From assembly GCA_032620915.1 (NCBI GenBank), contig CP136052.1:2782001-2846000 (forward strand): a DNA stretch of 64,000 bases, given 5' to 3'. The notes below the pieces were generated by a model. The model searched no databases and had not been told where the DNA came from. It saw only the letters and a program-made list of their open reading frames with translations. This DNA comes from Oscillospiraceae bacterium NTUH-002-81. Lineage in GTDB: Bacteria; Bacillota; Clostridia; Lachnospirales; Lachnospiraceae. Within the stretch, counting starts at the first letter, position 1. Every line of letters starts with the position of its first letter. Below, one piece after another: positions 12,218-41,673 of the stretch. Position numbers and translations under genes: made by a program.

Positions 12218-13372
12218 TCACTCTGCCGCTTTATATCCAGCATTCGTAATTACATAAATTGCTTCGCCTTTTCTTTCAATATATTTTGCTTGTAAACAAG
12301 CATTAAGCGCTTCTTCCCAAACAGCATATTCACGTCTATCTGGATACTCCTTAGCAACTACTTCGCTACCTATCTGAATATATGTGCCTGATTCCAAATC
12401 AAAGGCTATCAAAATCTGTCCTTCTGGTACAGCTGCCGCTTTTTTAAGGAGTTGCTTCATTTCCTCTGTAATTGAGACAGATGCAATGCCGACATTCTCC
12501 TTTTGGGTTGATACATCGCCGTTTATTTCACGAATAAACTTGTCCCTTGCTTCTTCCCAAATAATATCTTCATTATCTGAAATATCAAATTCTGATTCTA
12601 ATTCCCGTCTTAACTGATTCAGACGATCTTTTACTTCTGAACGATCACCATCTAACTTAATAGCAATACAGGCACTTCCAATTACACCTTTCATTTCTGA
12701 AAAATCAAAGCCTGGAAGAAGAAGTGACGTTGCATTTGCTCTTAGTACCCATGCTGCGCCCATTTCATTTAAGCTGACTGGACTTTCGTAATATTCTGGC
12801 GAATGTACGAAAATAATATGTAAGGCATAATTAAGAAACCGTTCCCTTAAAAAGTCAAAAATATTGGCTCCATTTGGTATTCCATATCCCGGAAGGGAAC
12901 TACAAAAAATATCTCTGCGAGGACTTAAATTGATTGAACGAAGTAAATCCGCAATTTTTGCAACTTGATCCTTATTCTTGGAAGAATGACTTATAAATAT
13001 AAGCGGTTTCTTTTTCATACCAGAAGCACCTCCTTGTAAGTGTGACAATTCTGACTCTTTTTTTTCGTCTGGATAATATCTATCAATATTTTTTCTAATA
13101 GCCTGAAGTTTTCCAACAAGCTCAATAAAATACTTTTTCTCTGTAAAACCATCCAGGCGCTTGCCACACAAATTAATAGTTTCCCATACAAAAGTGTCAT
13201 GAGTTCGATCATAAATTCCCTGTAATTCCAATTTTATTTCTTGAAGCCAATTTTGAAATTCAGGCACATCACTGATCCGTTCAAATGATGTTCCCATGCC
13301 GCCATCAAACGGATGAAACATCTTTTCTATTTCTTTTCGTGAATCTATAAGTTCAATTAAGTCTTTCTTCAA
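12218..13372 (-). CDS. TIR-domain protein at the end of the BREX operon
   Basis: A 384-aa protein. Residues 1-118 have no recognisable domain. A TIR domain spans about 122-265: beta strand PLIFISHSSKNKD (about 123-135), an AESLHI-like central part (FVHSPEYYESPVSLNEMGAAW) and a candidate catalytic glutamate in NEMGAAW (about residue 203). The C-terminal ~90 residues (EGQILIAFDLESGTYIQIG...) look like a small sensor or winged-helix module. Bacterial TIR proteins of defence systems cleave NAD+ on phage sensing, and a similar role is inferred here. It starts with TTG directly after the brxL stop, so it is the last gene of the operon. No other start has a better ribosome binding site. Confidence 0.85.
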   Translation of the reverse strand: MKKDLIELIDSRKEIEKMFHPFDGGMGTSFERISDVPEFQNWLQEIKLELQGIYDRTHDTFVWETINLCGKRLDGFTEKKYFIELVGKLQAIRKNIDRYYPDEKKESELSHLQGGASGMKKKPLIFISHSSKNKDQVAKIADLLRSINLSPRRDIFCSSLPGYGIPNGANIFDFLRERFLNYALHIIFVHSPEYYESPVSLNEMGAAWVLRANATSLLLPGFDFSEMKGVIGSACIAIKLDGDRSEVKDRLNQLRRELESEFDISDNEDIIWEEARDKFIREINGDVSTQKENVGIASVSITEEMKQLLKKAAAVPEGQILIAFDLESGTYIQIGSEVVAKEYPDRREYAVWEEALNACLQAKYIERKGEAIYVITNAGYKAAE

Positions 13373-15491
13373 TTACTCTACCCCCAACGCCTTAAACACC
13401 GCATCTTCCGCACTCTGATATGGAATCAACTGAAATGCACTCATCAGATCAGCCGGAACACTTGCGAAATCAACAAATGATGTACTCGGAATTAGCACCT
13501 TCTTTGCGCCACTATCCAAGCACACCTGAAGTGTATTGGCAAGTTCATCCACCTTTATCATTGTGCCACTAATTGTTATATCTCCCAACACTGCCAAGTT
13601 GCTGACAACAGGCTTTCCAAGGGCAATCGAACAAAGCGCAATCAACGTAGGAAGTGCCAGTTTATCTGTCATGCCGATGCCCTGCAAATCCTGATAATTG
13701 ATGATGTAGTCTTTGGTCGATGTACTGATAGCGCCACTGATCCGATTGCCGTTGGCTTTCAGATAATTAAATGCCGTGTTCACCGCTTCCTTGCATTTAG
13801 AATCACTGCCTAATCCTGTCCGTTCAATTTTGCCATTGCCCGGAAGCATCTGGCTTTCCAAACGGAATACACCAATCATGCCGCTTTTTCCTCTGGATAC
13901 GGTATAAATCTGTCCCGGATTACACATTCCATCCGGTATCAGCTTACCGCCACCCTGTTCTGGTACGGAAACATAATGTTCTGACATATCTTCTAGATCT
14001 ATATAGGAGAAGTTCACATCATAAAACTCCATACCACCCAGCTTCTTCAACTGCTCCTTGACGCGGCGACGCATTTCCAATGCAATTTGAATAATTTCTT
14101 CCAGTTCTTCTTTGGTAAACTCACCATTTGGATACATCAACTTCAGATAACCGTCTATCATACGACGAACCGCAATTGTGTCACGCTGATTCAAATTTCT
14201 TCCTAAACGGAAATAATGGTCAAATGCATCTCCATATTGCTCCTTGCGAAGTTCTCGGATGAACTCTGCCAAATAGTCACTGATAAAACCGTAATCATCG
14301 GTAAAATGCTCCGGTCTGAACTTCGGTATCTCCCATCCTGGAAGATAACAGTGCATACGATCAAGAAATGCTGTATCTGTTCCCATTTCCTGCGGAAAAG
14401 GTGCAAACAGACTGGATGTTTTCAACAGCACGTCCACACTTTGATTGATATTTCCCACAAATACCATGGACGCAGTAGCAGCTTTTTCTTCTTTGCCACG
14501 GGCAAAAGAGCCGGATGCCATGTAATCCTTCATAATCTGAATGCCATCTTTATCTTTAAACTTGATACCTGCCACTTCATCAAAGGCTACACAGTCCCAT
14601 AAGCCGACCAGTCCGACCGTTTTGCGTCCCATATTGTAAAACAGGTTTGCAACCGTCGTCTGTCCACCGGAAATCAAAATACTGTTTGGTGAAATCTCTT
14701 TGTAAAGATGAGATTTACCGGTGCTTCTCGGTCCAAGCTCACAAAGGTTAAAATTATTCTCAACTAATGGAATCATACGGGTCAAAAGTAACCATTTCTC
14801 ACGGTATGTAAATTCATCCGGTTCCATTCCGATAGAACGAAGAAGGATATCCAACCATTCATCTTTCGTAAAAACTTTTCGTCCCTGCTTCAGTTCATCA
14901 ATATCAATGTGCGGCATCTGGATCGGTGTCAGCTTACGGATACTGATTGGTGAAATATCTTTCTGCTTTTTCTGTTTGGAACGAAGTGGATTTCCATCAA
15001 TGTCCTCAATCCCAAAATTATTGTCGCCTTCAACCTCATAATCCAGCTGAACAATACACCAGATACCGCCACAGAGCAGGCGATCAAATTTTTCCGGATA
15101 TTCGTCGGCAATTGGTACATTACCAACGCCCAAATTAGAAAACTCTGCAAAAAAGCAATCCTTTTTCATATCCAGTCGAACAGTCACCATATCAATGATT
15201 GTGTGACTGCCTTTTTTTACGCAGCTGAGACAGAATTTTCTGTGATTCATCCGGGCGTACAAAGTTGTCAGCAAGAATACGCTTCACATTCTGTACGCCT
15301 TTCTCTATAACAGTCTCATCATCTGAACTGCAATACTGTCCCAACAAGAACTCAAGAACATACACTGGGACATTCGCCCCTTCTTTAATTTTCTTTGTCA
15401 GGTCTTTCCGAACAATCTTACCGTCAAAGTTCTGACGGAGCTTGTTCTTTATTTCTTCGCGGGTACTTTCATCCTCTGCAAATTGCTCCAT
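13373..15491 (-). CDS. brxL: BREX system Lon protease-like protein BrxL (frame broken once)
   Basis: The N-terminal piece (NFDGKIVRKDLTKKIKEGANVPVYVLEFLLGQYC) and the main piece (GSHTIIDMVTVRLD onward) match BrxL but lie in different frames. Removing one base from the T7 run at 15212-15218 (A7 on the coding strand) joins them into about 705 aa, normal for BrxL. An AAA+ module has Walker A GPRSTGKSH and the C-terminus is a Lon-type protease fold (GAISTSTKDYIIN..., GDITISGTMIKVDELANTLQ, AGAKKVLIP). The start at 15491 (MEQFAEDES) is chosen because it follows ggaggagag, while the upstream ATG at 15512 has none. BrxL is needed for phage exclusion. Confidence 0.9.
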
Positions 15492-15511
15492 CTTTCTCTC
15501 CTCCTGCGGCA

Positions 15512-18155
15512 TTAATTAAAAAAATCAAACTCGTCCACCGCAAAGGCGATGTCAATCTGAAATGGCTCTCGCTGTGGCATCTGTAATCCCTGTTCATCTG
15601 CAATTACTAGATAATAAGTAGCTGTATTGCTGTATTTTAGAGATTTTAGATTAAACTGACAACGGAAAGTTCTTTCTGCACCATTATCGCTGGTCTTATC
15701 TGCAATAATCTTCTGAATATCACTAATCTGCTTGCCGTCCTCATCTGTAAAGTAAACCTGATAGTTTGCAGCTTCACGGTTTGTACTTACCGCATCTTTT
15801 TGATAGAAGTTCAACGAAAAAATCATATTGCTGATTTTACGGTTTGCGGACAGTAAATTGACCGTTACCGGCTTGGTATCATATTTCTGTTTATTACGCT
15901 TGTATTCTATAGAATCATTGCGGAGATAATGATACTCAATCACCGGAACAACCATTTCCTGTAAACTGATACCACCATGCACAAAATTCATACCGCCGCC
16001 ATTCATTTTGATACGAATACTTTCTCTCGGTGCAAATCCATCAAATTCTGTATTTCCGCCCAGGAATTTTACAGGCATCAAGTAATCTGGTTGCACACCC
16101 TTCTGCATAATTGCATATCTTCTGCCATACTCCACACATCGCTTGATACTTTCTTTTTTTTGTAATGTCAGAGTTTGTTACATCCACATCAAAAAAGCCT
16201 CTTTTATCTACTTTGTCCTCTTCCTTCAAAGGACTGTATGTATAAAGAAATCCATGATCTGCCGTAATTAGAATATTCGTTCCACCAAATTCATTTACAA
16301 TGATACGCACAAGATTCTTCAATTCTGAAATTGCCTTGTCACACGCAGCAAAAACTGCAGTATCCGAAGTGTGGCTGGCTTCATCAATGGTATCGTGGTA
16401 AATATAGACCACATCCATACCTTTTACCAAAGCACTTCTTTCCGCTCGTTTCATAGCAATGATGTCATTATACTTTAAGGCCACGCTTGCTGAATCTTTT
16501 GTTTTCAGAACCTTGTCCCTATAAGTACTTGCCGTAGACTGTCCATCTGCCAAAACCGTCAAAATATCGTTCCGAACCTCTACTGTCAGTTCTTTGTGCG
16601 GCAACAAAGCTGCCATACCAAACTTTGTAGTAGAAGGGAAGATACTCTGCATACTGCTGATAGAAACCTTACTTTGCGTTTCTCGCTGAAGCTGATCTGC
16701 CATCGTAGCTGCCACTTCATAACGCATGGCATCTGAGATAATTACAAATACTTTCGTATCCGAGGTTTGAATACGGGAACGGTAAAAATCCTCCTGTTGC
16801 GGTACTTCCAGAACTTTACCGTAAGTTGCCAGTTCATCCGCACATACATCTGACCAGTTGTTGCCCAACTCACCTAAGAACCAATGATTATAGAGTCCTT
16901 CCACTTTATCGACAACGTGCTTGAATAGATCATCCAGCAGAATATTGGAAGTCTCCAAACTCTTTTGAAAACTAAGATGGAATAAACGGTAATAAGTATC
17001 CATCTGATAGTAACTCTCTGTATATTCTTTCCAGATACTTTTCGCTTCTGCGGTATGGAATCCGGCAGAATGTTCCTTAAAGAAACTTTGCATATTCGCC
17101 ACTTGTAAGATACCGTCATAAAAATTCTCAAATGGCTCATACCATACACAAGTTCTCCGTTCTTCAACGGTATCCGTAATGGTATCCACATCAATGATAT
17201 GGTCACTAATCTCTGTCATTATCTTTGTCAGAATCACTTCATTAATACACGGAAAGCACTCTGTTCCTACCAAATCCTCTACTGCCAGCTTTTCAAAGCG
17301 CTGATGCAGATGAGCTTCATCCTCAACATAACGTGCCACATCATATAATTGCGGAATGTTATCACTATGAAGCCATTCAGAAATAAAATCATAGCAATAT
17401 GCCTGATGTGGTATGGAAATAAAACCGTCCAGTCCGGCAAGATATTCCTGCCGCATGGTACGGGTCGCCGCGGTTAAAAGCAGATGAATTGCCAACCGCC
17501 CAAGGTCTGGTTCTTCCTCCACAAATCCGCATCTCTGACGAACCATCGCCCAAAATGCTGCGTCTGCATGATATTTTACAAGATCCTGATAAACCGTGTT
17601 ATTATTCAAATCCAGTCCCGCCTGGAACACACTACGGAGAATCATATTAGGCTGTGCATCTTTCAATCCACAGATTACCGCCATGACAGCCATGTGTAAC
17701 TGTGCCGGTGTTTCCGGAACTTTATTCTGTGTACTGACTTTCAAACGACGGTCTTTCGCATTGAAATAAGCACGATAATTTTTAACCTGTTTCCTCATTG
17801 CCGGATTTGATATAAGTCCCATCTCATCCATCCAGATAGAAATCAGATCCGCCCGAAACTCTTCGCTGTAAAGCTCCACATCCAGAAGCCAGTTATCATC
17901 AGGGCGGTTATAGACACACGGACTGTAAACCAGATAATTTGTGGTCAAATCATCTACTGAAAGCAGTTTTTTTACAGAAAACGCATTATTTCCAGTCAGT
18001 GCAATCACCTTTGCATTTTCCAAAACCACTTCATCCAGCTTATCCTCAAATTCCTTATCTTCATCGTACCAGAAAATGATACGACGCTGATAAAACTCAG
18101 GAAGAGGTGCAGCAAACCTGCGATTTAAATCTTGTATTATTTTATCTGTATCCAT
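15512..18155 (-). CDS. pglZ: BREX phosphatase-like protein PglZ (frame broken once)
   Basis: PglZ of type I BREX, alkaline phosphatase superfamily. The first ORF has the metal-binding core VFVIISDAMRYE (about residue 465) and ILITADHGFLYTY (about 630). It leaves frame at DITKK, and the rest (MEYGRRYAIMQKG to EFDFFN) follows in another frame. Removing one base from the T8 run at 16154-16161 (A8 in the coding strand) gives a continuous protein of about 880 aa, close to the family length. ATG follows ggagg, 9 bp after the AlbA_2 gene. Without the correction, the protein would lose its last ~210 residues. Confidence 0.92.
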
Positions 18156-18164
18156 GCTGTCCTC

Positions 18165-19640
18165 CTACCTTATAATTTTCCAATTTGCTTTTCGTTTTGT
18201 TCCGCTCTGTACCAATCTACCTTTTTCCTGTAAAGAAGCAAACATTCGAGAAACCGTTCTTTTCGATATACCTATTTCTTCCGCATAATATGCCTGTGTT
18301 GCAGACGGATTCTTCTCTATAATCTGCAACAATTTTTCTATCTGCGTCTGTTCCTTATTAAGTGGCACTTCAGCGCCATTAGTGCCATCATCAGCGCCAC
18401 AATTAACGCCATTAGTGTCATTTTTAGTGCCATTGGCGTTAATTATGGCGTTATTGGTATCAACCTGACCTCGATAAATATTGATACGCAAATCAACTTC
18501 GCCACCAATAAACTCCGGCTCCCGCAGTCCGGCAGCTTTTACTTTATCAATAATTCTCGGAATACCGCTTCCCCAATGCTCAATCAGGTTCATATAAGCA
18601 AACGCATGGGCAAGGGCTTCATTTCTGATTTTGGAATAGCCTTCTTTCATACGCTCCATCGTTTGTCCCATTGGCAGCTTTCCTGGAGAAGTAATTTCCA
18701 ATCGGTTGTCATATACCGCAACCTGTATCGTACCATGATCCAGATAACTACGATGTACCATGGCATTGATAATCAACTCACGAATGGCATCCGGTGGAAT
18801 CTCATAAACATCCTGCCGATAAATTCCCACAATGGTAGCACCCAGATGAATATTTCTCAGAACAAACTGAAATGCTTCATCTATCTGCTCCCAAAGCGGA
18901 CCGGTATATTCTCTACGGTCAACAAATACCGCTTTCGTTGTACCTTTGAACACACCACATTGCGTTGCAACATGAAGTCCTCCGTTGCCTGTCAAAATAG
19001 CAAAGGCATTGGACGGATAATCTTTTCCATCACGCTCAATCAAAACACCCCAGGAACGCAGCTGCTGTCTACCGACATCTTTGATGTATGCTTTCTGTTC
19101 CTCAGTATGTGCGTTTTTGATTGCCTGCTCCTTCATAGCTTTGCAAAGAGCATCAATATCTTCATCCGTGATATTCAGTCCTGTACACAAAACCTGATCG
19201 TAGTAGCGGTTACTGCCCTCAAACAACAGCTCCTTGACCATATACTCATCGGCAAGGCGGGTGGTTCCGGCAACACGGACATATACACCGCCATCTCTGC
19301 CAAGGGCTTTGATATAATACGGACGCTGTCTGCCCTCAGAAACCTCTACCACAATGACAGTCTTACCATTAACCGTCTGTAAAGTAATATCCGGGATAAT
19401 TGCCGGTTCACAGCTGTCTGATACGGCATTGGCAATGGCATCCATTTTCTTGAATACATCTTCCTTGTCAAAGCCAACAACCTCTCTGGTTTTATCGGCA
19501 ATTCCGAAAATGATTTTTCCTCCAGTTCCATTTGCAAAGGCAACCACAGACTTCATATATTTGATGCTTTTCTCCGGCAGGTTCTCTTTGAACTCTACAT
19601 TCTTCGATTCTCCTGCAAGAATTTCTTCTATGGTCATCAT
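18165..19640 (-). CDS. AlbA_2 (Schlafen-like) DNA-binding protein with HATPase_c_4 and winged-helix tail
   Basis: A 491-aa protein inside the BREX operon. Residues ~10-125 form an AlbA_2 domain (ESKNVEFKENLPEK, VVAFANGTGGKIIFGIADKTREVVG, GGVYVRVAGTTRLAD). Residues ~285-375 resemble the RecG-C-terminal-type HATPase_c_4 fold (REALIINAMVHRSY-like IRELIINAMVHRSYLDHG, NRLEITSPGKLP, NEALAHAFAYMNLIEHWGSGIPRI). A repetitive Asn/Gly/Thr linker (about 397-425) leads to a C-terminal winged helix (YYAEEIGISKRTVSRMFASLQEKGRL). Proteins of this make-up are usually called transcriptional regulators or helicase-like. Its role in BREX is unknown. ATG follows gaggtg. Confidence 0.85.
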   Translation of the reverse strand: MMTIEEILAGESKNVEFKENLPEKSIKYMKSVVAFANGTGGKIIFGIADKTREVVGFDKEDVFKKMDAIANAVSDSCEPAIIPDITLQTVNGKTVIVVEVSEGRQRPYYIKALGRDGGVYVRVAGTTRLADEYMVKELLFEGSNRYYDQVLCTGLNITDEDIDALCKAMKEQAIKNAHTEEQKAYIKDVGRQQLRSWGVLIERDGKDYPSNAFAILTGNGGLHVATQCGVFKGTTKAVFVDRREYTGPLWEQIDEAFQFVLRNIHLGATIVGIYRQDVYEIPPDAIRELIINAMVHRSYLDHGTIQVAVYDNRLEITSPGKLPMGQTMERMKEGYSKIRNEALAHAFAYMNLIEHWGSGIPRIIDKVKAAGLREPEFIGGEVDLRINIYRGQVDTNNAIINANGTKNDTNGVNCGADDGTNGAEVPLNKEQTQIEKLLQIIEKNPSATQAYYAEEIGISKRTVSRMFASLQEKGRLVQSGTKRKANWKIIR

Positions 19641-19676
19641 AACACCTCGCTCTCTTTGGTAGCATTCGCCACCCGA

Positions 19677-20360
19677 TTATTTTAAGTCACTTTCTGTTTC
19701 CGAAGAATCCGCTTTTTCTACTATTGCTGATAACGCTGATTTAGCAGAAATGATTGCTGTAATATCACTAATATCACCAATATCCAATTCGATATGATCT
19801 ATATTTTCATCACCTGGCGTAAATACAAATCTTACTTCCTGCTGATAGCTATACGAATCACGTTTCCAAAAAGCAATATTCCACATTCCTGCAAGCAATG
19901 AAATTAACATATTCCCGCCATCAATAGTTGGATCATAGTATTGAACTGGCTTGAAATAAACTTTATAACCTGCTTGTTCAGCCGCAACTTTTACCCTACG
20001 AATAAATTCATCATGGTCTAAAACGATCAATGCCGTATCGCCAAATGAAAGCATTTTTTCTTTTTGTTTATCTGTAAATCTAAATTTTTCTTTCTTTGGA
20101 TTTACACCAAACATACAGAAAACGAAATCGTTTGATTCAGATGTTTTTAACAAATCATCATTAACTGCAACTGTTTCTCCAGTATCAGGGAAATAGATAG
20201 TAGCTTCGTTAATATGAATCATGGCTTCATACTTGTCGCCAACTTCACAATCACCGGTTTCTTCTTCTCTTTTACGATAATATCCAAGAGTTTTCGCATA
20301 AATTTTCCCCGCTTGCAAACTTTTAATCTTGTCTGCATCTTGAAATTTTATTAGTGGCAT
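19677..20360 (-). CDS. Unknown protein nested in the BREX operon (227 aa)
   Basis: I do not recognise a family. The protein starts MPLIKFQDADKIKSLQAGKIYAKTLGYYRKREEETGD and has KYEAMIHINEATIYF, FVFCMFGVNP and YSYQQEVRFVF segments, which look like a compact alpha/beta fold of soluble type (no membrane helix, no signal). The end is acidic. It lies between the 273-aa gene and the AlbA_2 gene in the same orientation. AAAGGA sits right in front of the ATG, so the ribosome binding site is cramped. Confidence 0.6.
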   Translation of the reverse strand: MPLIKFQDADKIKSLQAGKIYAKTLGYYRKREEETGDCEVGDKYEAMIHINEATIYFPDTGETVAVNDDLLKTSESNDFVFCMFGVNPKKEKFRFTDKQKEKMLSFGDTALIVLDHDEFIRRVKVAAEQAGYKVYFKPVQYYDPTIDGGNMLISLLAGMWNIAFWKRDSYSYQQEVRFVFTPGDENIDHIELDIGDISDITAIISAKSALSAIVEKADSSETESDLK

Positions 20361-20446
20361 TCCTTTTGCTTGAAAATGAAATTTTTCTCCCTTCGAATCT
20401 CTCCCTTCGTTGTTAATTGATATATTTTCACGTCTACATAAGTAAT

Positions 20447-21265: not shown

Positions 21266-21309
21266 TTTGTAGCACCTCATCACGAATAAATACCAAACTC
21301 ACATTTCAG

Positions 21310-21540
21310 TTATTGGCAATTTTCCAGAAACTTCTCTGTATATTCCAGTCTTAATTCCTCTACAAGATACAGATCACTCATACAGTGCATATCAGAAACA
21401 CCATCTCGCATTAGCTGATAAACTTCAGAATGATAAAATAATCCCAATGCCTCATCCAGAGAAAGTCCCTGCTGTTTGGCAAAGCACTCAATGACACGGG
21501 CATATTTTTTCTGAAGTAAAATCGGGTTTGCAGTCATCAT
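21310..21540 (-). CDS. Small unknown protein downstream of pglX (about 76 aa)
   Basis: A small all-helical-looking protein, MMTANPILLQKKYARVIECFAKQQG then LSLDEALGLFYHSEVYQLMRDG and SDMHCMSDLYLVEELRLEY. It resembles small conserved Clostridia proteins found next to defence or toxin-antitoxin genes, but I cannot name the family. ATG at 21540 follows ggaggg at 7 nt; the TTG at 21546 is a less likely start. It lies 13 bp after pglX. Confidence 0.62.
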   Translation of the reverse strand: MMTANPILLQKKYARVIECFAKQQGLSLDEALGLFYHSEVYQLMRDGVSDMHCMSDLYLVEELRLEYTEKFLENCQ

Positions 21541-21553
21541 ACGCAATCCCTCC

Positions 21554-24500
21554 TTACTTTATTTTAGCCAAAACATCCTGGATAATTGCATAATTCTTCT
21601 TTACACCATCGTCCAGATCAATGGAAATCATCTGATCGGCAAGGTGATGAATCTTTTCCTCATAGGTTCTGATTTCAGTATCCTGTGCCTGCAAGGTGGT
21701 CAGCTTTTTGTTCAGCTTCACACGCTCGCCAGTAGAAGCATTGGCAATACGTTGTTCCAGATCGGCAATGGCAGTGCGATAACGAGCCTGCTGCTCATGC
21801 ACATAGTCGGTACGGATACGGGCAATGGTGTCCGGCTGGTAGCGGTGCATATAGATCAGTGCCTTGAAGCCATTCTTTTTGCCGCTGTCAAACAACCAGT
21901 AGATCGGACGTTTCTGATACATCTTGCAATGGTCGGAGTAAAAGTCACTCAGGAAATAATTCCGAATCACATCCTTCGGCTGACCCTTGCCGCCGAGAGC
22001 ATCCGCAATGAATTTCAGGTTTTCGTCCAGCGTATCTGCACCATAAACCGTTTTCACAAACTCCACGAACAGACCGACGATATCATCCTCGAAGTATTCA
22101 TCGTCGCAAATCGGGATAATGTTATCCTTATCCGCAGCGAAAGAAGCGTACTTGCTGTTGTCCCATTCGCCACCTACATAGGCAAGCCCGTCCACATCCA
22201 GAGAGTAACGACCAAACATACAACCAACCGCATAGGAAATGAAAGAGCGAATATCTCTACCAAGGTCAGCCTTGCGGACAGTAACATCCTTATCCTCAAC
22301 CTCTGGTGTCAGCTCATCCTGCAAACCATAAATGTCAATGAAGATACGGTTCAGTTCTTCCTCATTAGCTTTCAACTGGTTGAAGCGGTCATCACATTCA
22401 GTCTGCCACTGGTCAAAGGCTTCGGCAATGGTAGAAACTTTACGAAGTAATGGATGGTGCTGGAAATCCCATGAAGTTTCAAAGGAATCCCAATCATTCT
22501 TTGACATTTGTAAATTTGCTGATACTATAATATTTACTTCGCTTTCTCTATTCAATATAAACGGGATATTAGGTATATGTCCGGTACTATAATGAAGTCC
22601 TTGACATATTACATTCAAAAAGGTTTGCGCCACATTTGAATTTAAAAGTCCAAGCAAATACTTCTCATCTCCTGTATAAAAGCAGGTTGGACCAGCAGCA
22701 TCAAACACAAATCCTTTATCCACATATCTCGCACAATATAACGCTGTTGATAAATCGTTCCATGTAATTCCACTTTGAAAATAGTATTGCCTTGATGGTA
22801 GATGATTTCCCATTGTTAAGAGTAAATTATAATTTGTATAATCCATTTTTATAACATACTCTCTATTTCCAAACCATCTTCTAAATGATCCCCCTTTATT
22901 ATATGGTACAAACAATTTTTTACTTTCAAAAAATTGTTCTTGGCTTTCAATACTAAATCCAATTTTTCCATACTCAACTTCATGCCAAAAACGCAAAAAC
23001 AAATCATTATTTCCCGTTGCGATTCCCTGGCGACAGTCAACAGCACTTCCAAGTAAATGTGTATTTGAAAAATGATAGCCAATTTTCTCACTTATCCAAT
23101 ATGCAATAATATTATCAACCATGTGCAAATAATTATTTTGATGGCAGCAATATATCAACTCTTTATTATTATAATTTTTTATCTTCTCTTGCGAATCCGA
23201 TAACTCAGTTAATTTTTCAAATTTTCCAATATAATCAAACAGATGGGACTTCCTAATTACAAATGAAGCCGTCTGTACAACTTCTCCACCAATATCTTCA
23301 AATGCCCTTGCTCCTAAATGCAACACATTTTCCAATGTATAGTTTAATAATTGTAATCGTAAGGATTGATAACGTGAAAGGAACATCCAAGAATGCATCG
23401 TTATCATACCGATAAATCCATTCTTTTTTGTTAATTCCATGTTTTTCTGCATAAATACAGAAAACATATCATTTTTACCATCGGCATACTGCTTTTTTAC
23501 ATATTTCAGTAAAATAGCCCCCATATTAGAACTACTCATATATGGCGGATTCGTCACAACCGTATCATACTTCTGTGCTAATGCCTCTGCTACCTGCACC
23601 AACGGCAGTAATTCTCTCAATACCGTATCACGGGACATATGTATATCTTCCGTAATCTCTGCAAAACGGTCATACAGCATCGACCAATCCTGCGGTGTTA
23701 CCGTCAGAATCGAGCCGTATTCCTTTGCATCATGTAATTCTTTGATGATAGTATCCATAGCGGCTGTGAGCTTCATATCGCCATTACAGAAATAATCTAC
23801 TGCAAATTTGTCTACATGGTTACTCTCCACAATAGCATATACATGTGGCTGAATGCCACGTCTGAAAAAGCGTCGGTCATACTGACGGGCTTTCATCATT
23901 ACCGCAAAATAAGCCAGCTGTGCCGCACGGTCATCAATATCCAAACCATAAAGATTATTCTCCACAATGCTTGCCACTGCTTCACGGGTGGTATAGCCGT
24001 AGGATTCATAAATCTTCATCAGCACATCAAACATATATGCAAGAATATGACCGGAACCAGAGCAAGGATCAATGACCTTCAGCTGATCTGGTGTCAGTGC
24101 GGCGTATTCCTTGCGAATCCCGGCAAGCTGTGCCTGCACTTCTGGCTCCTGCTCGGCTTCTTCCAGATAGTAGTGCCATTTGGTATCTTCCGGGTCACGG
24201 TTTCCGGCAACATAGGCAGACTGTTCTTCCTCTGTCGGCAAAAGCTGTTCTTTTACATCCGGGTGTCCCTCCAACCACAGGCGACCAAGGCTGTTCTCTA
24301 CCATGTAGCGAACAATCCAGTCCGGTGTGAAAAGCTGGGTTGCTGCAGGGATGTTTTCTTTTGTGATTTTCACATTCTTTTTCAGTGCTGTGAAAACGTC
24401 ATCCTTTTTCTCACTGTTATAATACTGATACAACCAGCCGATGATCTGGACAGCATCCTTCCAATCATCCTCCGGTATCAGCTCAATCATCTGCTGAATG

Positions 24501-25048
24501 ACGCTGCCTTCACGGAGCAGATTGTCCGGCAGAAGAAGCTCGGTGTAATCTGCAATCTTCTGGAACATTTCTGGCAGAATCTTATTCAAGGCGTTACACT
24601 GCACGATCAGCAGATATTTATACAGTTCTTCGGTCTTTTCGGCATCTTTCAGTTCATAGACCTTTTCCATATCCAGTCCATCCAAATCCAAATGAATGGC
24701 TTCGGTTATAATCTGCGGCTTAAAGTTGTTTTCCTCGTCCGTGAACACACGCACATGAGAAGGAAGATAGCCATTGACTTCCATGAATCGCAGAGCAGAG
24801 AAGCGGTTGAACCAAGTGTAGGCAATCTCCTCCATGACCTGCCTATATCCTTTATCGTTAATCTCAGCAATCAAAGCCTGACGCTGTTTCTTTTCATCGG
24901 CAGTGAGGACTTTGCCGCCAACACTGTCCGCATTGGCATCCTCAATGTTGTCCTCTGTGATACCGTATTCCACACCTTTCAGGGAAACACGGGCGATCAG
25001 CTCTGTTCTTGCCCAGACAGCAAACTTTTTTATCGCATTTTTATCCAT
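21554..25048 (-). CDS. pglX: BREX-1 system adenine-specific DNA methyltransferase PglX
   Basis: A 1164-aa N6-adenine methyltransferase that marks host DNA so the BREX system can tell it from phage DNA. Motif I DPCSGSGH (about residues 327-334) and motif IV NPPY (about 500-503) are intact. The N-terminal part (KNAIKKFAVWARTELIARVSLKGVEYG) and C-terminal coiled region (ARYRTAIADLEQRIANASTGERVKL) are typical. The segment at about 22500-23470 (residues ~530-850) is much AT-richer than the rest, consistent with an exchanged target-recognition region. ATG follows ggagga, 3 bp after the SEFIR gene. Confidence 0.95.
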   Translation of the reverse strand: MDKNAIKKFAVWARTELIARVSLKGVEYGITEDNIEDANADSVGGKVLTADEKKQRQALIAEINDKGYRQVMEEIAYTWFNRFSALRFMEVNGYLPSHVRVFTDEENNFKPQIITEAIHLDLDGLDMEKVYELKDAEKTEELYKYLLIVQCNALNKILPEMFQKIADYTELLLPDNLLREGSVIQQMIELIPEDDWKDAVQIIGWLYQYYNSEKKDDVFTALKKNVKITKENIPAATQLFTPDWIVRYMVENSLGRLWLEGHPDVKEQLLPTEEEQSAYVAGNRDPEDTKWHYYLEEAEQEPEVQAQLAGIRKEYAALTPDQLKVIDPCSGSGHILAYMFDVLMKIYESYGYTTREAVASIVENNLYGLDIDDRAAQLAYFAVMMKARQYDRRFFRRGIQPHVYAIVESNHVDKFAVDYFCNGDMKLTAAMDTIIKELHDAKEYGSILTVTPQDWSMLYDRFAEITEDIHMSRDTVLRELLPLVQVAEALAQKYDTVVTNPPYMSSSNMGAILLKYVKKQYADGKNDMFSVFMQKNMELTKKNGFIGMITMHSWMFLSRYQSLRLQLLNYTLENVLHLGARAFEDIGGEVVQTASFVIRKSHLFDYIGKFEKLTELSDSQEKIKNYNNKELIYCCHQNNYLHMVDNIIAYWISEKIGYHFSNTHLLGSAVDCRQGIATGNNDLFLRFWHEVEYGKIGFSIESQEQFFESKKLFVPYNKGGSFRRWFGNREYVIKMDYTNYNLLLTMGNHLPSRQYYFQSGITWNDLSTALYCARYVDKGFVFDAAGPTCFYTGDEKYLLGLLNSNVAQTFLNVICQGLHYSTGHIPNIPFILNRESEVNIIVSANLQMSKNDWDSFETSWDFQHHPLLRKVSTIAEAFDQWQTECDDRFNQLKANEEELNRIFIDIYGLQDELTPEVEDKDVTVRKADLGRDIRSFISYAVGCMFGRYSLDVDGLAYVGGEWDNSKYASFAADKDNIIPICDDEYFEDDIVGLFVEFVKTVYGADTLDENLKFIADALGGKGQPKDVIRNYFLSDFYSDHCKMYQKRPIYWLFDSGKKNGFKALIYMHRYQPDTIARIRTDYVHEQQARYRTAIADLEQRIANASTGERVKLNKKLTTLQAQDTEIRTYEEKIHHLADQMISIDLDDGVKKNYAIIQDVLAKIK

Positions 25049-25051
25049 ATA

Positions 25052-26161
25052 TCATTCCTCCGGCTCCATAATAACTGCTTTGCAGGGATTCTCCTCCGTT
25101 ATCTTTGTTCCAGCTGTAACCGTTATTTCTTTCATTGGAATTGCGTACTCAAAATCAAATTGCATATTTTCTATTACAACTCCCATTGATGGATTCTTTA
25201 ATCCGACAGGAACTAAATAATATTTTCCTGTCTTGTTATACATATCTAAAAACTGATCTCTATTACCTGATCCGTTATTTTCATCCATCCACTGGTAACG
25301 TGAAACCGTTGCCAAAAGTAGTTGTTGCATTTCTATTCCGCAATTATTAGCTCGACTAATGCTTTCATCAATATTTGCGCCTATATGCAGAAAATATCCT
25401 TTTCCATAATTTCTGTCATACGATTCATATATCCAACATGACTTAGGAAACGGTGGAACAATATAGTCAACCTTCAAAAAAGTATCTGCGAATGCCATAT
25501 CTTTGTATTTTTTCTTCCACTCTTTGAAAATTTCTTTACCCACTGAGTAATTTGTAAAAAACAAGCCTATGGCAGGTGCATCTCCACCCCAAAAATATAC
25601 TGTTCCTCTCCACTTTGCAACATTCCACTTTTCAAGGTTAATTGGTGAAGAAAAGAACATTGTTTTTCGCTTCTTTTCCGGTAATGGTTTCAACTCACCT
25701 AATGGAGGCTTTTTACTATTGGTAACACCCCTAAAACGCCAATACAGCCTTTCATATTGTCTTTCATCCGAAAGATTATAATATGTGTATGGTTTCAGCG
25801 GTGTGGGTATATACTGCTGATCATCGTCATCAAAAAATGCCGCAATGAATTTATTTGTTTCTGCTGCTGAATCATATAACATTTGATAAACAATATTAGC
25901 TTCCCAAACCACACCTTTACCTTTTTTGTCAGAATAGAGTTTTCGATTATACGTTTCTTCGCACAAGACAAGAACAAATTCTGACTCCGTTATTTGATGT
26001 TCCATCCACCGTGGCCATCCTTCAGAAGGTGCTTCCTCATACTGATCTATCATTGCATCAATGCCTTCTGAACGTAATCTATTTGCTAACTTTAATACTT
26101 TATCTTCATATGCTTGATTTTTATGTGCATACGAAATAAATACTCTTGGGTTATTATCCAT
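25052..26161 (-). CDS. SEFIR-domain protein nested in the BREX operon
   Basis: A 369-aa protein with an N-terminal SEFIR domain (TIR relative; about 1-130): PRVFISYAHKNQAYEDKVLKL, LRSEGIDAMIDQYEEAPSEGWPRWME, SEFVLVLCEETYNRK and a long loop before VVWEANIVYQMLY. SEFIR proteins in bacteria occur in defence islands and are thought to trigger cell death or NAD+ loss. The remaining ~230 residues (KTMFFSSPINLEKWN..., YFLHIGANIDESISRANN) are unrecognised and rich in aromatics. It lies between a membrane protein gene and pglX, and has its own aggaga ribosome binding site. Confidence 0.85.
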   Translation of the reverse strand: MDNNPRVFISYAHKNQAYEDKVLKLANRLRSEGIDAMIDQYEEAPSEGWPRWMEHQITESEFVLVLCEETYNRKLYSDKKGKGVVWEANIVYQMLYDSAAETNKFIAAFFDDDDQQYIPTPLKPYTYYNLSDERQYERLYWRFRGVTNSKKPPLGELKPLPEKKRKTMFFSSPINLEKWNVAKWRGTVYFWGGDAPAIGLFFTNYSVGKEIFKEWKKKYKDMAFADTFLKVDYIVPPFPKSCWIYESYDRNYGKGYFLHIGANIDESISRANNCGIEMQQLLLATVSRYQWMDENNGSGNRDQFLDMYNKTGKYYLVPVGLKNPSMGVVIENMQFDFEYAIPMKEITVTAGTKITEENPCKAVIMEPEE

Positions 26162-26178
26162 ATTTATCTCCTAATTTT

Positions 26179-26661
26179 CTAAACCACTATCGTATCTCTG
26201 ATATTTGCCCGTATTGCAAACAATGGAACTGGCAGTATTCCCTTTACCTTTTTTTGATCAACACTATATGCTGTCACTTGACATTTATCAAAGTGTTCCT
26301 TTTGGCAATGCCATTCCAAAGCATCTACTTCCTGATCTGACAAAGTATATATGATATTATGAAAAGGTAATATAATCCGATCACTTTCAGCTATATGGCA
26401 ATCTACTAATAATTTCTTCTTGTGGCAAATCACAAAGCTCTCCAAAATAAAAGGCTTTTCTCCCACATTAAAGATTTCTATTCCATGTTCAGATGGACTT
26501 TCTTTTACACGGTATTCCTTTTCTGTCAGTTCATCATCTGGTGTAGACACCATTTGAAAGCAGAGCTTCGGTCTTTCCCTAAAAGTAGTAGTCAGCTCAT
26601 TCAATACCCAGCCAATGACAACTCCGATAACGCCAATCCCTGCACTTATTAGTTCTATCAT
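26179..26661 (-). CDS. Membrane-anchored unknown protein upstream of the SEFIR gene (160 aa)
   Basis: The N-terminus MIELISAGIGVIGVVIGWVL is one membrane helix followed by a positively charged stretch (TTFRERPK). The rest is a soluble, beta-rich domain (KLCFQMVS, EHGIEIFNVGEKPFILESFVICHKKK, IILPFHNIIYTL) with no family I recognise. Placement directly before the SEFIR gene, in the same orientation and 17 bp apart, suggests a pair in which this protein tethers or senses at the membrane. aggagag precedes the ATG. Confidence 0.6.
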   Translation of the reverse strand: MIELISAGIGVIGVVIGWVLNELTTTFRERPKLCFQMVSTPDDELTEKEYRVKESPSEHGIEIFNVGEKPFILESFVICHKKKLLVDCHIAESDRIILPFHNIIYTLSDQEVDALEWHCQKEHFDKCQVTAYSVDQKKVKGILPVPLFAIRANIRDTIVV

Positions 26662-26676
26662 GGTTTGGCTCTCCTG

Positions 26677-29600
26677 TTAATTCAGCTTAATCTCGTCGCA
26701 ATTCTTCAGCAACTGTTTCAGCTGAGAACGAATCTTCTCTACATAATCATCAATATCCGCATCCGTCTGTAAGGTCTTTGCCTGAAATACAACCTGACGG
26801 TTATAAGCACGGACAACCTTTTTCTTTGCGGTCGCTTGTTCTTTTTCCAGGCTGTGTCGGCTGCACTGGCGGCTTCGGTGCAGGCGGAGCCAGAACAGTC
26901 TCGATATTGCTGACGGTATCATCCTTGTACTGGCACATCGGCAGGAACATGGCATCCAGAAGGGCAAGGCTCTTTAATTCTGCGATTTTCTCCTTGCACT
27001 GACTGAAATATTTATCCGATTTTTCAATCAGATGAGATGCCTTGGAATCGCCGTTTGCGGCAGTGTGGGTTGCTTCCATACACTGACGAACCGTTTCCAG
27101 AACCTCGGCACGTTTTTCTTCCAGCATCTTATCATGGGCAGTACGAACCGTATCCATCAACGGATTCAGTTCACGAATCCGGTTATAATTGAACTTGCTT
27201 CCGGTCTGAACAATCGTAATCAAACGAATGGTATTCAGCGCTTTATGTGCTTCCTCATTTTCTGCAATACGGTCGAGATCGTCGTGCAGAGATTTTTCAA
27301 ACTGCACTGCCTGGTCGAATACTGTTACCTGGGTCTTGAAAAAGTTTTCAATGCCGTTGCTCATGGCTTCCTTGTTATCGAAAAGAGCATCCTCTTTTTT
27401 CAGTACACGCTCAATCAGAGCAATATTGTCTTTCTTCTGAGAAAGTACATCATCCATCAGATGAATAGCTTCCTGCACCAATGCACGATCCGGATATTTA
27501 TGTCCATCATAACGGGCATCCAGAGAAGCATAGTAATCACGCTGTTCACTGAATTTCTCAGTCACAAAGCGAATCAGACCATCTTCATCATCCGGTACAT
27601 CCATAACATCGAAATAATCCCGGAGCATTGATTTCACATCACGCATCATCGTTGCGGAAATGGTTTTACGCTTGCTGATGGAAGTCTTACCAATCTCACT
27701 CTTTTTACGGAGCATATCCGGCAGTTTCGGGTCATCCGGCTGAATGGTATTGCCTGCATACTTGATGGTTACTTTCTGGGAATAAATCAGCTGTGCCGCA
27801 ACCGCAGCAATGTCGATTTCTTTCCAGCCATACGGAATCGCACTGTATTTGCTTTGCACATCTGCCATAGACGTCGGCAGCTTTTTCGCATCCTGCATTT
27901 CCAGATATTCTTCCATAGCAGAAGCAGCATCACGGTTCGGTTCCATGCCCGGAAGTGCTGTTACCGCACCTGTCAGAATCGCAATAATATCTGCGTCACT
28001 GCCTGCATTATCTGTAATCAGGTCGAGCTTGCTATACACATGAGCAACCAGATATTCAAGAGACTGGTCAATCTTGCTCTTGGCATTTCCGGCTTTGATT
28101 TCCAAATGCTCACCATCTACATAGAACTGTGCCCCTTCAATAGCATTTTGCAATTCGGTCATAGCGCTCAGCTCATATTTTCCGGCTTCGTCCTGCTGAT
28201 CGCTGATGATTTTCTGCACAGTTTTTGGAAGCTGGCTTACGTTTCTCTGCTTTACATACTTCCGAATCTTCATGGCGGATTCCAGAGATTCATAGTAAGG
28301 CGTATCAGCCAGAACAACAATTGCTTCGTTGCCTTTGGATTCTGCCATCAGACGATAATCTGTTTTTTCAATGGCATCCGTTGCCACGGTTAGGAAACGC
28401 AGACGCATACCGCCTGTTGCCACACCAACCGTAATGCCGTCAACCATCTGATCGAAAGCAAAGTCATATTTTCCATAACGGAACTTCTTAGTTGTGAAAA
28501 TATCGCCGTAAATCATCTGGGCGATACGCTCTACGATAGATGCGGTATCCACATTGGTATCTCGGATTTCACGCTGAATGTCCTGTTCTTCATCAGTCAG
28601 GAAGTTATAGGTGTCGCCGGTTCTGCCGATATAGTTCTGGCTCATCAGACGGTCAAGGCATCCACGGACAGCTTCACGCATAATAATCTTATCCACACGA
28701 ATATCGTCCGCCATAAGGATCACGATATTGTCCAGATTAGAAGGAATATCATCAATATATCGAATCAAGTACAGAAGTTTCAGTACATCCACATCCTGCT
28801 GTTCGATGCCGTCCCCATTGTCAGCAGCTTTCTGGCAACGCTCAATTACTCGGCGAATAGAACCGTCCAGGAAAGTATGTACGGTATCGTAAAAACGGAA
28901 GAATGGAACAAGTGCGTATTCATCCTTCTCCTGAATTTTCTGTGCAGCTTCCTGGAAACCGGACAGCATGGAACGCTCACCACCGGACAGGTGTTTACCG
29001 GAATTTCCGTGTTTTCGGATTTCAGCAAATACTTTCTGCATGATAATAAACTGATACGGCACGAATGGGAAGTTCTCTGTAAATTCTCTCGGACCGGAGT
29101 AGCCTTTAATGTCCAGAATAGAGCCACTGAAGCTGAATAGGTTACGAAGGACAGAATCATTCTGCTCATAAACACCTTCCAGGTCTTTGGCTGCTTCTGT
29201 TTTCTTTTTTAGAATACGCTTCTGGATGACTTCATCCACGGAGGAAGAAGATAAGCTCAGTCTTGTTTTGAAACGAGCCTGGATACGGGAGAACTCATCG
29301 GCACGAACTTTGATGATTTCATCAATGGCTTCCTGTCCGGTACAGATCACCCAGATCTTACCTTCGCACTCACTTCCGATTTTCTCGGTCAGAGACTGGA
29401 GGTTCAAAAGCATATCGGTATCCGTACCAACATACTGACCAACCTCGTCAATCATAAACAGCAGACGGAAGTTGGCAGGCTTGGTATCTACATAGGCTTT
29501 CATATCTTCCACAAGCTGTGCGATAGAAATTTCTGTTGCAGTTTTATCATTGAACCACGTCTTGGCATCGTCCTCACTCATATCCAGAACTTCCATCAGT

Positions 29601-30226
29601 GTCGGGATGATGAACTTTCCATTGAAAGCAAAGGCACGGCGCATTTCAAGCCAAGGCTTGCCTTTCTTTTCTTCAAAAACTCTGCGGAACTCCTCTGTCT
29701 TACCCTGCTGGTCAATATAACGCTCCATCATGGCAACTTTCAGATTTTCACCGTAAAATCCCAGATGGTTGTAGAACATCTTTGCAAAAACACGAAGTAC
29801 AGCAGTCTTGTCTTTATTGCTGAATCCCTCAATATCAATATTAAACAGAATTGTCTCCGTTGTTCCCTTTGTAGCACGGTCAATCAGCATAAAGGTTGCC
29901 GGATCGTCCTCAAACTTCTTACGAAAACGTTCTACACTCCGAATACCTTTTACCTCTTTATTTTCCAGAAGGTAGGAAAGCATTTTCAGAAAGTGAGATT
30001 TACCACTTCCAAAGAAACCGGAAATCCAAACACCCATATCAGCCGTAGGCTGGTCAAAGGCATCCCCATAATAGTTGAAGAAAGTGATGAAGTGTTTCTT
30101 CAATTCTCTGGTAATGACATATTCATTTAACTCCTGCTCGATTACATCATCAGCAGCCTGATCTACTTTAATTACACCATTGATTTTGCGGTTAATGTCA
30201 TCCGCAAACATATCTCGAATCATCAT
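26677..30226 (-). CDS. brxC: BREX P-loop ATPase BrxC (frame broken near the C-terminus)
   Basis: A large ATPase required for BREX. Walker A GFFGSGKSH lies at about residues 70-77, the Walker B region is RLLFMIDEVGQYVG, and a conserved LFSFSGSILDIKGYSGPREFTENFPFVPYQF follows. The long frame of 1141 aa ends abnormally (PGKRTSDRKEKGCPCL), while the true tail (EKEQATAKKKVVRAYNRQVVF to CDEIKLN) is in another frame ending at 26677. Removing one base in the T5 run at 26842-26846 restores about 1180 aa. ATG follows ggggga. Confidence 0.93.
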
Positions 30227-30239
30227 GGCTTTATCCCCC

Positions 30240-30800
30240 TTAATCTATGACATTGAATGCCCGATAATAATCATTTGGTGTCAAACGGTTGAACAGTTTT
30301 ACATGACGACCATCAAACTCCCCCGGATACATCACCAAAATCGGAACATCCGAAAAATACGGTTGCAAGGCTTCCAGTAACGTATGGATTCTCATAAACG
30401 GGAATACCTCGCCTACACCTGTCAGCATCAGCACGTCACCCAGTTCGTGTGGCTCATACTGGATTTTTTCAATAAACTCTCCATTGCCGATTGCAGAATT
30501 AAGCTGCTCCAAAAGATAAGCACTCCCGTCAGCTTCTTCCATATCGGGAATCGCATCTGTGATGTCCATATCATCGCAGATAGAGAGAAATGTTTTATAT
30601 AAATTACAAACGATCAAATGGCAATCTAAGAACTGATCGGTTTCCAGCTGATTCACAAAATGGCGGACAACCATTTCATTCTCCGGTTCATAACAGAAGA
30701 TTCTGATATTCACCTCATTGCTGAGTCCTTTGCCTTCCAGGAACTCCGGTTCCTGAATCAATGCCCGAACTTTGTCCAAGCGCTCTTTTATTTCACTCAT
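30240..30800 (-). CDS. brxB: BREX protein BrxB (DUF1788)
   Basis: A 186-aa protein of the DUF1788 family, a small conserved component of type I BREX of unknown activity. Recognisable are MSEIKERLDKVRALIQ at the start and the C-terminal FPFMRIHTLLEALQPYFSDVPILVMYPGEFDG. The start at 30800 is favoured over the ORF start at 30824 because ggagg precedes it at 7 nt. The N-terminus overlaps nothing; brxA ends 12 bp upstream. Confidence 0.92.
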   Translation of the reverse strand: MSEIKERLDKVRALIQEPEFLEGKGLSNEVNIRIFCYEPENEMVVRHFVNQLETDQFLDCHLIVCNLYKTFLSICDDMDITDAIPDMEEADGSAYLLEQLNSAIGNGEFIEKIQYEPHELGDVLMLTGVGEVFPFMRIHTLLEALQPYFSDVPILVMYPGEFDGRHVKLFNRLTPNDYYRAFNVID

Positions 30801-30811
30801 CGGGTTACCTC

Positions 30812-31417
30812 CTACACAAAGCAATTAAACGCCGGCAGTACCGCCGTGTCGCCATTGCTTCTGATGGCATTCTCTAAAATAGGATGCAGCCATACTGGAT
30901 TCAAATGATCTGCCTTGAGGTTGTCGAGATATTCTGTTTCGACAAGCACTCTGGCAATAATCTGTTTTAACTTTGTTATCGTACTATCGCTCCAGGAAGC
31001 TACGGTATCATTTTGTTCCTGTAAACGCATAAAAAATGTATTCAAATCTATTTTACCAAAAGACGTGTCCCTTAATCTGTACTTCTCACCAATGATGGTC
31101 AGCATAAATTCCCAAACCAGTCGACTCTGCTTCATCAATGCATACAGACAAATCTGTTTTGCCACATCCGTCGGCTGTGACGCAATCGCAGAAATCAGAG
31201 AATCATCTTCTAGCGCATGGAGTCGTTTGATACAGGCTTTCGCCATGCGTGTGATAGATTTTTCCGTTGGATACTGGAAAAGATTCTGCTCTACAATTTC
31301 TTTAACAATCGTATCATCGGAAATTCCTTCTGACATAAGCTTTGCAGTGGAACGCATTTCATAAAAAAGGAACGGCTCTCTGGTCAAAGATGCAATATAA
31401 GGATAAGAATGATCCAT
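30812..31417 (-). CDS. brxA: BREX protein BrxA (DUF1819)
   Basis: A 201-aa DUF1819 protein. In E. coli BrxA is a small DNA-binding helical protein of BREX. The sequence MDHSYPYIASLTREPFLFYEMRSTAKLMSEG matches the family N-terminus and LVWEFMLTIIGEKYRLRDTSF its middle. Strong ggaggtg before ATG. It is the first of the core BREX genes and follows the XRE regulator by 14 bp. Confidence 0.93.
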   Translation of the reverse strand: MDHSYPYIASLTREPFLFYEMRSTAKLMSEGISDDTIVKEIVEQNLFQYPTEKSITRMAKACIKRLHALEDDSLISAIASQPTDVAKQICLYALMKQSRLVWEFMLTIIGEKYRLRDTSFGKIDLNTFFMRLQEQNDTVASWSDSTITKLKQIIARVLVETEYLDNLKADHLNPVWLHPILENAIRSNGDTAVLPAFNCFV

Positions 31418-31431
31418 GTTCCCGCACCTCC

Positions 31432-31650
31432 TTACTGCTCTTCTTTTTTATCAGGAACAAATTCCATGATATCTCCCACATCACAATTCAAAGCAGAACA
31501 TATCTTTGACAGAATCTCTGTACTTACATTTTCATCTTTTGATAATCGAGACATCGTTGTTGTACTAACTCCTGTCATTGCACGCAAATCTTTCTTCATC
31601 ATTTCTTTATCAATTAACAATTTCCACAATTTCTTGTAACTAACTGCCAT
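31432..31650 (-). CDS. XRE family transcriptional regulator leading the BREX operon
   Basis: A 72-aa Cro/C1-type helix-turn-helix protein: KKLWKLLIDKEMMKKDLRAMTGVSTTTMSRLSKDENVS then LSKICSALNCDVGDIMEFV. It is the first gene of the BREX operon, with aggtg upstream of the ATG, and probably represses or tunes the operon by binding its own promoter. Confidence 0.93.
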   Translation of the reverse strand: MAVSYKKLWKLLIDKEMMKKDLRAMTGVSTTTMSRLSKDENVSTEILSKICSALNCDVGDIMEFVPDKKEEQ

Positions 31651-31964
31651 TTTTTCACCTCAATCTTATTTGCTTGAAATATCTGTTCACATGGTATTTA
31701 TCATCATATCATAAAAATGCGTTTCAAACAATCTAATCTATCAAAAATCATAATTCAATTCCGAAATATCGCATTTAAAATCACAAGAAGCACAGCTTAA
31801 TAAGACAAGCTGAAAGTACAAGCACATCTTAATAGCAACGGTTTGTCCAGTATGGGATTTACCATATCTGGTTTTCCTATTTTCTGATGTCCGGAGATAG
31901 AAATTTCCTATGACCTGATTGTCCAAAATTGGACTATCCACCCTTAGGCACTTCTATTCTCTAC
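31651..31964. other. BREX operon promoter region and decayed HTH-gene tail
   Basis: Upstream of the XRE gene, on the reverse strand, is an AT-rich TTGAAA followed at 18 bp by TGATAA, a weak promoter at best. Further up (about 31750-31945), the reverse strand encodes fragments of the repeated P-x-L-x-N type tail of replication-type HTH proteins (DSPILDNQV in one frame, NPILDKPLL in another). This suggests that the HTH gene at 31965 once extended into this region and has decayed. No intact gene is present. Confidence 0.45.
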
Positions 31965-41659: not shown

Positions 41660-41673
41660 ATCATCTGCTTGGC

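Follow-up and report, generated by a model that had tools for sequence, protein, structure and literature searches.

Type I bacteriophage exclusion (BREX) systems are characterized by N6-adenine methylation of host sites together with phage exclusion, and embedded defence genes have reportedly been treated in a 2024 preprint by Payne et al. Here we analyse a BREX locus with several such genes in a stretch of 64,000 nucleotides from Oscillospiraceae bacterium NTUH-002-81 (contig CP136052.1, positions 2,782,001 to 2,846,000; this whole stretch is hereafter called the window), contained in a single-contig genome of 3.62 Mb. The locus occupies a minus-strand island of low GC content at about 12.1-33.0 kb (36-45% GC inside versus 50-59% in the flanks). 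By gene content it is a type I BREX, since the six core genes brxA, brxB, brxC, pglX, pglZ and brxL are present, with type-1 PglX and PglZ.

Accessory genes in such operons have precedents. In the StySA BREX of Salmonella, according to the part of the source available, an ATPase and a DUF4435 accessory gene share a transcript with pglZ, transcription also starts inside them, and removal of accessory genes left methylation unaffected (PMC9009780). Rakesh and Krishnan (2026, PMC12839542) describe, for at least 1017 taxa, a linkage of BREX and related systems with a Schlafen RNase that is combined with a minimal histidine kinase and a winged helix-turn-helix (wHTH), and DarTG2 lying between hsdS and hsdR is an example of embedded defence genes (PMC12255303). 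The presence of accessory genes inside BREX, the Schlafen type included, is already published, as the accessible portions of PMC12839542 and PMC9009780 attest. The main text of PMC12839542, as far as it was accessible, contains no mention of TIR, Toll, NADase or Sir2, nor is that paper among those found for BREX with SEFIR. For BREX with SEFIR, or BREX with a TIR domain and pglX, we noticed no report of TIR or SEFIR genes inside BREX, judging from listings of apparent reviews and surveys, and no literature pairing bSEFIR with NAD was found.

We consider it fairly probable that the island descends, in disabled form, from an integrative mobilizable element which recombined into the CIRCE (controlling inverted repeat of chaperone expression, the HrcA operator) of hsp20, with BREX as cargo and with separately acquired defence genes lodged inside it. 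What can be read in the DNA is a conserved backbone with exchange points and junctions at CIRCE; relatives encode an integrase and a relaxase, neither of which has a match in the window. From family knowledge, BrxA, BrxB, BrxC, PglX, PglZ and BrxL would carry out methylation-guided exclusion. The separately acquired genes would be a membrane protein with a SEFIR protein, a DUF3791 protein with an ADP-ribosyltransferase-like and an unknown protein, a Schlafen-type protein, and an SpbK-like TIR protein.

Island ends and mobile backbone

At the left end of the island a CIRCE precedes hsp20 (11442-11906, HSP20 profile). It lies on the minus strand at 12063-12089 (TTAGCACTC-N9-CAGTGCTAA) and forms a 9-N9-9 inverted repeat with one mismatch to the CIRCE consensus; it is overlapped by TTGACA-17-TATAGT at 12075-12047, which of all promoter-like sequences in the region scanned is the best match. 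At the right end there is half a CIRCE, TTAGCACGCACCTCTTGA (32984-33001, minus strand), followed by TAATGGAAGTCG. The same arrangement was found in two other genomes. G360, which also carries BREX, has an intact CIRCE before clpB at one end and TTAGCACTCACCTCTTGA followed by TAATGGAAGTCG at the other, with a tyrosine integrase of the Tn916 type next to the clpB (left) end. In G269, which has no BrxC, a CIRCE before clpB is matched at the far end by TTAGCACTCAACTCTTGA followed by TAATGGAAGTTG, and an integrase 98% identical to that of G360 lies about 2 kb from the left end, behind one other gene. Half operator and island start are nearly identical at the three right ends (stretches compared: the window, L199, L200, and L137 with L206). 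Since three insertions at two heat-shock genes share nearly one junction, insertion at CIRCE would be best explained by targeting, and from the letters themselves it follows that the operator would be rebuilt at the left end upon insertion. A second CIRCE, at 10714-10740, precedes clpB of the window genome itself and bears no insertion.

The relatives also show what such an element may have contained. Between window positions 31821 and 31829, G360 holds about 4 kb more, with genes for a MobA/VirD2 relaxase, MobC/NikA and an actin-like protein. As the BREX-less element of G269 also has relaxase, MobC and actin-like genes, the window island has probably lost them. In the window, tblastn gave no match in the 64 kb to the relaxase, MobC or actin-like protein of G360. 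What is left of the mobile backbone includes an HTH_36 gene (31965-32279, minus strand, PF13730), found with equal length in the G269 element, and a gene for a TnpV-like protein (32403-32681, minus strand, PF14198, 86 bits) within the block 31829-32743, which is 95.5% identical in G360. Integrase, relaxase and attachment (att) repeats, the features that define an integrative mobilizable element, occur together in G360 and G269 but not in the window. Because the window keeps the ends and part of the backbone without a match to integrase, relaxase or MobC, we call its island a derivative only.

Several observations weigh against this account. No tblastn match to the G360 integrase was found in the window. 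Although an uninterrupted CIRCE precedes hsp20 in two genomes of the same genus without a BrxC match, the iron-containing alcohol dehydrogenase (Fe-ADH) and pyruvate formate-lyase (PFL) genes of the window are not beside hsp20 in the same-genus genomes, so that an empty site in synteny is lacking. The junction is known from three copies only. BREX stretches were compared from 38 other genomes or loci of the order, and of these 38 that of G360 alone has a CIRCE; the wider flanks of the BREX loci of G343, G349 and G153 have no half-CIRCE junction; those of G343 and G349 have no CIRCE, whereas the G153 flanks contain a single one, which lies about 28 kb away from brxC and precedes a gene that reads as hrcA. 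The frame changes in brxC, pglZ and brxL described below could mean a dead operon. Moreover, the available text on the StySA BREX reports a partial terminator between brxC and pglX (PMC9009780), so a common transcript cannot be taken for granted here.

The scarcity of CIRCE around BREX indicates that the junction belongs to the element and not to BREX, and it bears as well on another explanation, in which the island is an ordinary defence island of chance neighbours and its terminal CIRCEs reflect recombination between heat-shock promoters instead of a CIRCE-recognising recombinase. Clustering and embedding of defence genes are well known (PMC12839542 and PMC12255303, in their accessible parts), hsp20 genes may stand in tandem, as two do in G703, and the small number of junctions would fit. 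We judge this explanation improbable, since three genomes share nearly one right junction although two distinct heat-shock genes are involved, the 98% identical integrases lie near the left end in two of the three copies, and G360 was the only one of the 38 stretches with a CIRCE. A wider proposal, on which our judgement is evenly balanced, is that of an element family whose tyrosine integrase targets CIRCE and whose own left half-operator lets operator and promoter be rebuilt, and which moves exchangeable immunity cargo including BREX with TIR and SEFIR genes; HrcA bound on the att site could then tie mobility to heat or phage stress.

The BREX core and its frame changes

All core genes claimed by an earlier, sequence-only reading of this DNA are present on the minus strand and in the order claimed, according to profiles of Pfam, PADLOC and NCBIfam. 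They begin with an XRE-like regulator of 72 aa (31432-31650, HTH_26, PF13443 81 bits), followed by brxA (30812-31417, PF08849), brxB (30240-30824, PF08747) and brxC (26677-30226, NF033441, 1206 bits). After the first insert comes pglX, a type I BREX methyltransferase gene (21554-25048, NF033452, BREX-1 PglX 1410 bits), and after the second come pglZ (15512-18155, NCBIfam PglZ type A, 497 bits) and brxL (13373-15512, NCBIfam BrxL, 892 bits).

Comparison with G360 separates a conserved backbone from exchanged parts. BrxA, BrxB, BrxC, PglZ and BrxL are 95-99% identical as proteins, and so are, at 95% and 96%, the SEFIR and Schlafen-type proteins; lower values are found for the 160-aa membrane-anchored protein (77%) and PglX (75%). 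At the DNA level, 13372-19657 is 95.5% identical, and this block ends at the border between brxL and the TIR gene. The alignment is interrupted at 19658-21539 (the DUF3791, 278-aa and 227-aa genes), continues at 85% over 21540-22495 (the 3' part of pglX), and is interrupted again at 22496-23521 within pglX, where BLAST aligns neither G360 nor the relative L034. It then reaches 92% over 23522-31821 and, beyond the block of the TnpV-like gene, 97% over 32811-33013. The island differs from that of G360 in the middle of pglX, the pglX-pglZ insert and the gene behind brxL, the rest being mostly 92-97% identical. A divergent middle of pglX with both ends conserved is what would be expected of a swapped DNA-recognition region.

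In this assembly brxC, pglZ and brxL are not single frames, each of them continuing in another one. The change is near the 3' end of brxC (about 26.82-26.84 kb), at about 16.14-16.18 kb in pglZ and at about 15.20-15.27 kb in brxL. The two pieces of pglZ (16041-18155 and 15512-16135) correspond to the N and C parts of one PADLOC PglZ model, and both pieces of brxL (15192-15512 and 13373-15274) match BrxL in Pfam, PADLOC and NCBIfam. Such changes in three of the six core genes, next to SEFIR, TIR, Schlafen-type and 278-aa genes that are all open, would be expected if the changes were real, the BREX dead, and protection left to the autonomous accessory genes. We give this possibility a low probability. 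In the relatives G360, L034, L035 and G153, brxC (1182 aa) and pglZ each read through without a frame change, as does brxL in G360, L035 and G153 (in L034 it runs off the end of the stretch). The core pieces flanking the breaks are 93-100% identical to the intact frames of G360 and L034, and A-runs are found at the breaks in pglZ and brxL or close to them. Outside the island, the Fe-ADH gene (33073-34342) and two MATE transporter genes (39306-40755 and 41654-43047) also appear split between frames, the state of the MATE genes being judged by profile matches. Since flanking genes are split too and the relatives are intact, assembly error is likelier than decay as the cause.

Genes lodged inside the operon

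The accessory genes named in the sequence-only reading are likewise all present at the places it gave. Its view of them as accessories agrees with inserts that stop at or near gene borders in a conserved backbone, and with the constant place of the SEFIR gene in its close relatives. Its remark that they share the strand of the core genes and have ribosome binding sites of their own holds for the strand, but clear spacing for a binding site is not seen in every gene: the TTG start of the TIR gene sits directly on the brxL stop (TAATTG).

Between brxC and pglX lie the genes for a membrane-anchored protein of 160 aa (26179-26661, minus strand), with an N-terminal hydrophobic stretch seen by eye and 51 relatives, and for its partner, a SEFIR protein of 369 aa (25052-26161, minus strand; PF08357 69 bits, PADLOC bSEFIR 205 bits, PDB SEFIR 5y8e). 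The bSEFIR match spans residues 1-304 and thus extends beyond the SEFIR domain itself. One scan of GTDB representative contigs with this protein, which reaches close relatives only, gave six loci with 83-95% identity, two of them shared with our survey of the order (G360, as L033, and G343, as L037). In all six the SEFIR gene stands between brxC and pglX of a BREX, and in four the 160-aa partner is present. A more distant full-length relative (43.6%) is encoded by a plasmid of Lactiplantibacillus on which no BREX gene is annotated.

The insert between pglX and pglZ, on the minus strand like the rest, encodes a small DUF3791 protein of 76 aa (21310-21540; PF12668, 26.2 bits against a cut-off of 25), a 278-aa protein (20447-21283) that is a weak candidate for an ADP-ribosyltransferase-like fold, and a 227-aa protein (19677-20360) without a family in Pfam, PADLOC or NCBIfam, whose predicted model has a predicted local distance difference test score (pLDDT) of 88.9 and no useful PDB match. 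The fourth gene encodes a Schlafen/AlbA_2 - HATPase_c_4 - winged-helix protein of 491 aa (18165-19640; PF04326, PF13749, PF13412). With AlbA_2, a minimal histidine-kinase-type domain and wHTH, located within the core locus, it has the layout of the published back-up effectors, and it may act as a tRNA-cleaving back-up, as proposed in the accessible part of PMC12839542. The 278-aa family is present in three of 392 genomes of the order, the other two having no BrxC match; in one, G310 (L134:8996-14871), the relative is beside open reading frames (ORFs) that by eye resemble a type III restriction subunit and a YhcG nuclease. In G349 (L136:1118-1324) a DUF3791 gene 84% identical precedes pglZ without the 278-aa and 227-aa partners, and may be read as a trace of cassette turnover.

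Behind brxL, and abutting it, is the gene for the SpbK-like TIR protein of 384 aa (12218-13372, minus strand; PF13676, PADLOC spbK 246 bits). SpbK is known as an NADase that a phage portal protein activates. The spbK match covers residues 8-284. The protein has the N-terminal domain and a TIR domain with the motif N-E-x-G-x-x-W, and in the comparison with PDB SpbK 9phb (E 1.1e-21) LNEMGAAWV is aligned to LNEMGATWV. In G330 (L054:12563-14230) the gene directly behind brxL encodes a fusion of this N-terminal domain (aa 2-106) with a protein kinase of the Ser/Thr type. The presence of one N-terminal domain with another effector at the same place argues for the TIR protein as an autonomous sensor-effector cassette. 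Remnants of it also occur: right behind brxL of G349 there is a match, interrupted by a stop, that covers its first 48 residues, and the G269 element keeps a remnant of its C-terminal end. By analogy with SpbK, its trigger could be a phage structural protein bound by the N-terminal domain. TIR and SEFIR proteins would most likely be NAD+-degrading back-ups with triggers of their own, acting outside the BREX complex, so that a suicide back-up role for these genes is inferred by analogy.

BrxC was found in 39 of the 392 genomes, and the brxC-pglX junction could be read in 35 loci (all but G082, G135, G172 and G285). It is filled in nine: by SEFIR in four (the window, G343, G360 and G349), by TIR in two (G063 and G369), by DUF3990 in G001, and by a PADLOC PDC-M14 pair in two (G216, assigned by the model, and G013, by similarity to G216). 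The pglX-pglZ junction, counted as filled when it holds an ORF of 140 aa or more on the same strand, is filled in 19 of 31 readable loci, five of the 19 with an AlbA_2 match. Besides DUF3990, the heavily loaded operon of G001 (L093/L094) has nine ORFs, each 280 aa or longer, in its pglX-pglZ interval.

It might be thought that the accessory genes are integral to a variant BREX in which BrxC, PglX or BrxL activates the SEFIR and TIR proteins upon failed exclusion, with the brxC-pglX position dedicated to TIR-fold effectors. TIR or SEFIR genes indeed occupy six of the nine filled brxC-pglX junctions versus none of the 19 filled pglX-pglZ junctions (p = 2e-4; after collapsing look-alike modules by eye, 4/6 versus 0 of an estimated 15, p ~0.003), and SEFIR is as conserved as the core. 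However, this statistic was formed after the data had been seen, and it was not replicated in a set of 22 further genomes of the class with 26 BrxC places, screened by phmmer with the sequences in hand and not with the TIR and SEFIR Pfam models: one of 24 readable brxC-pglX junctions is filled, by a PDC-M14-like pair. The preference for TIR-fold proteins is thus suggestive within the order, and we do not claim it. The same families also occur mostly without BREX. There are 18 SEFIR matches in 17 of the 392 genomes, 14 of them outside BREX, and co-occurrence with BREX by genome is not significant (4/39 versus 13/353, p = 0.077). TIR_2 matches number 35 and come from 23 of the 39 genomes with BREX; eight of the 35 are in the BREX locus (SEFIR proteins included), and relatives of the window TIR protein are found in 24 of the 392 genomes, 20 of them with the relative away from BREX. 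We therefore regard the variant BREX as unlikely.

These counts also bear on a check set beforehand, namely whether the accessory genes occur at random beside unrelated loci. The answer went half that way, as the families lie mostly away from BREX in the order, the 278-aa family included. Given this distribution, we read the accessory genes as travelling defence genes that have settled in BREX, in preference to subunits of it. The single combined machine of the sequence-only reading is possible, but it is not the explanation we favour.

Comparison with known systems

If the proposed derivation from a mobilizable element with BREX cargo is true, BREX would be passed on as a scaffold in which the DNA-specificity region and the nested effectors are swapped singly at gene borders, and NAD+ degraders of the TIR fold would be added to the nuclease back-ups already published. 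For an element, a heat-shock operator that is entered and rebuilt would be an unusual choice of target, and could link the mobility of defence to stress. The integrases of G360 and G269 have PF00589 and PF02920, like Tn916-type tyrosine integrases, but are less than 60% identical to every plasmid or phage relative found (at most 40% among the matches listed) and differ in lying near CIRCE, with no counterpart matched in the window.

With SpbK of ICEBs1 (PMC12847820, in its accessible part) the TIR protein shares the N-terminal domain followed by TIR, the catalytic-site motif, of which N191, E192, G194 and W197 were mutated there, and carriage on an integrative element; it differs in an extra C-terminal part (about residues 286-384) and in its place behind brxL. 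The SEFIR protein resembles the PADLOC bSEFIR model in its N-terminal SEFIR domain and over the 304 residues matched, and differs in being paired with a membrane-anchored protein inside BREX.

The operon as a whole has the brxA-brxB-brxC-pglX-pglZ-brxL order, BREX-1 PglX and PglZ type A of NCBIfam type I BREX, from which it departs by the inserts at brxC-pglX, at pglX-pglZ and behind brxL and by the three frame changes of the assembly. Like the StySA BREX, as described in the available text, it has accessory genes within the operon, although of other families. The described embedded defence genes likewise lie inside the operon of another system, and PADLOC families with PDC names occur at the same junctions in relatives of the window; from what was accessible, the difference is in the gene families that the window holds in a BREX operon. 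Finally, the back-up effectors of PMC12839542 have in common with this locus the Schlafen, histidine kinase and wHTH combination and the idea of back-up suicide; the effectors there, in the portion available, are nucleases, and to these the window would add TIR and SEFIR proteins.

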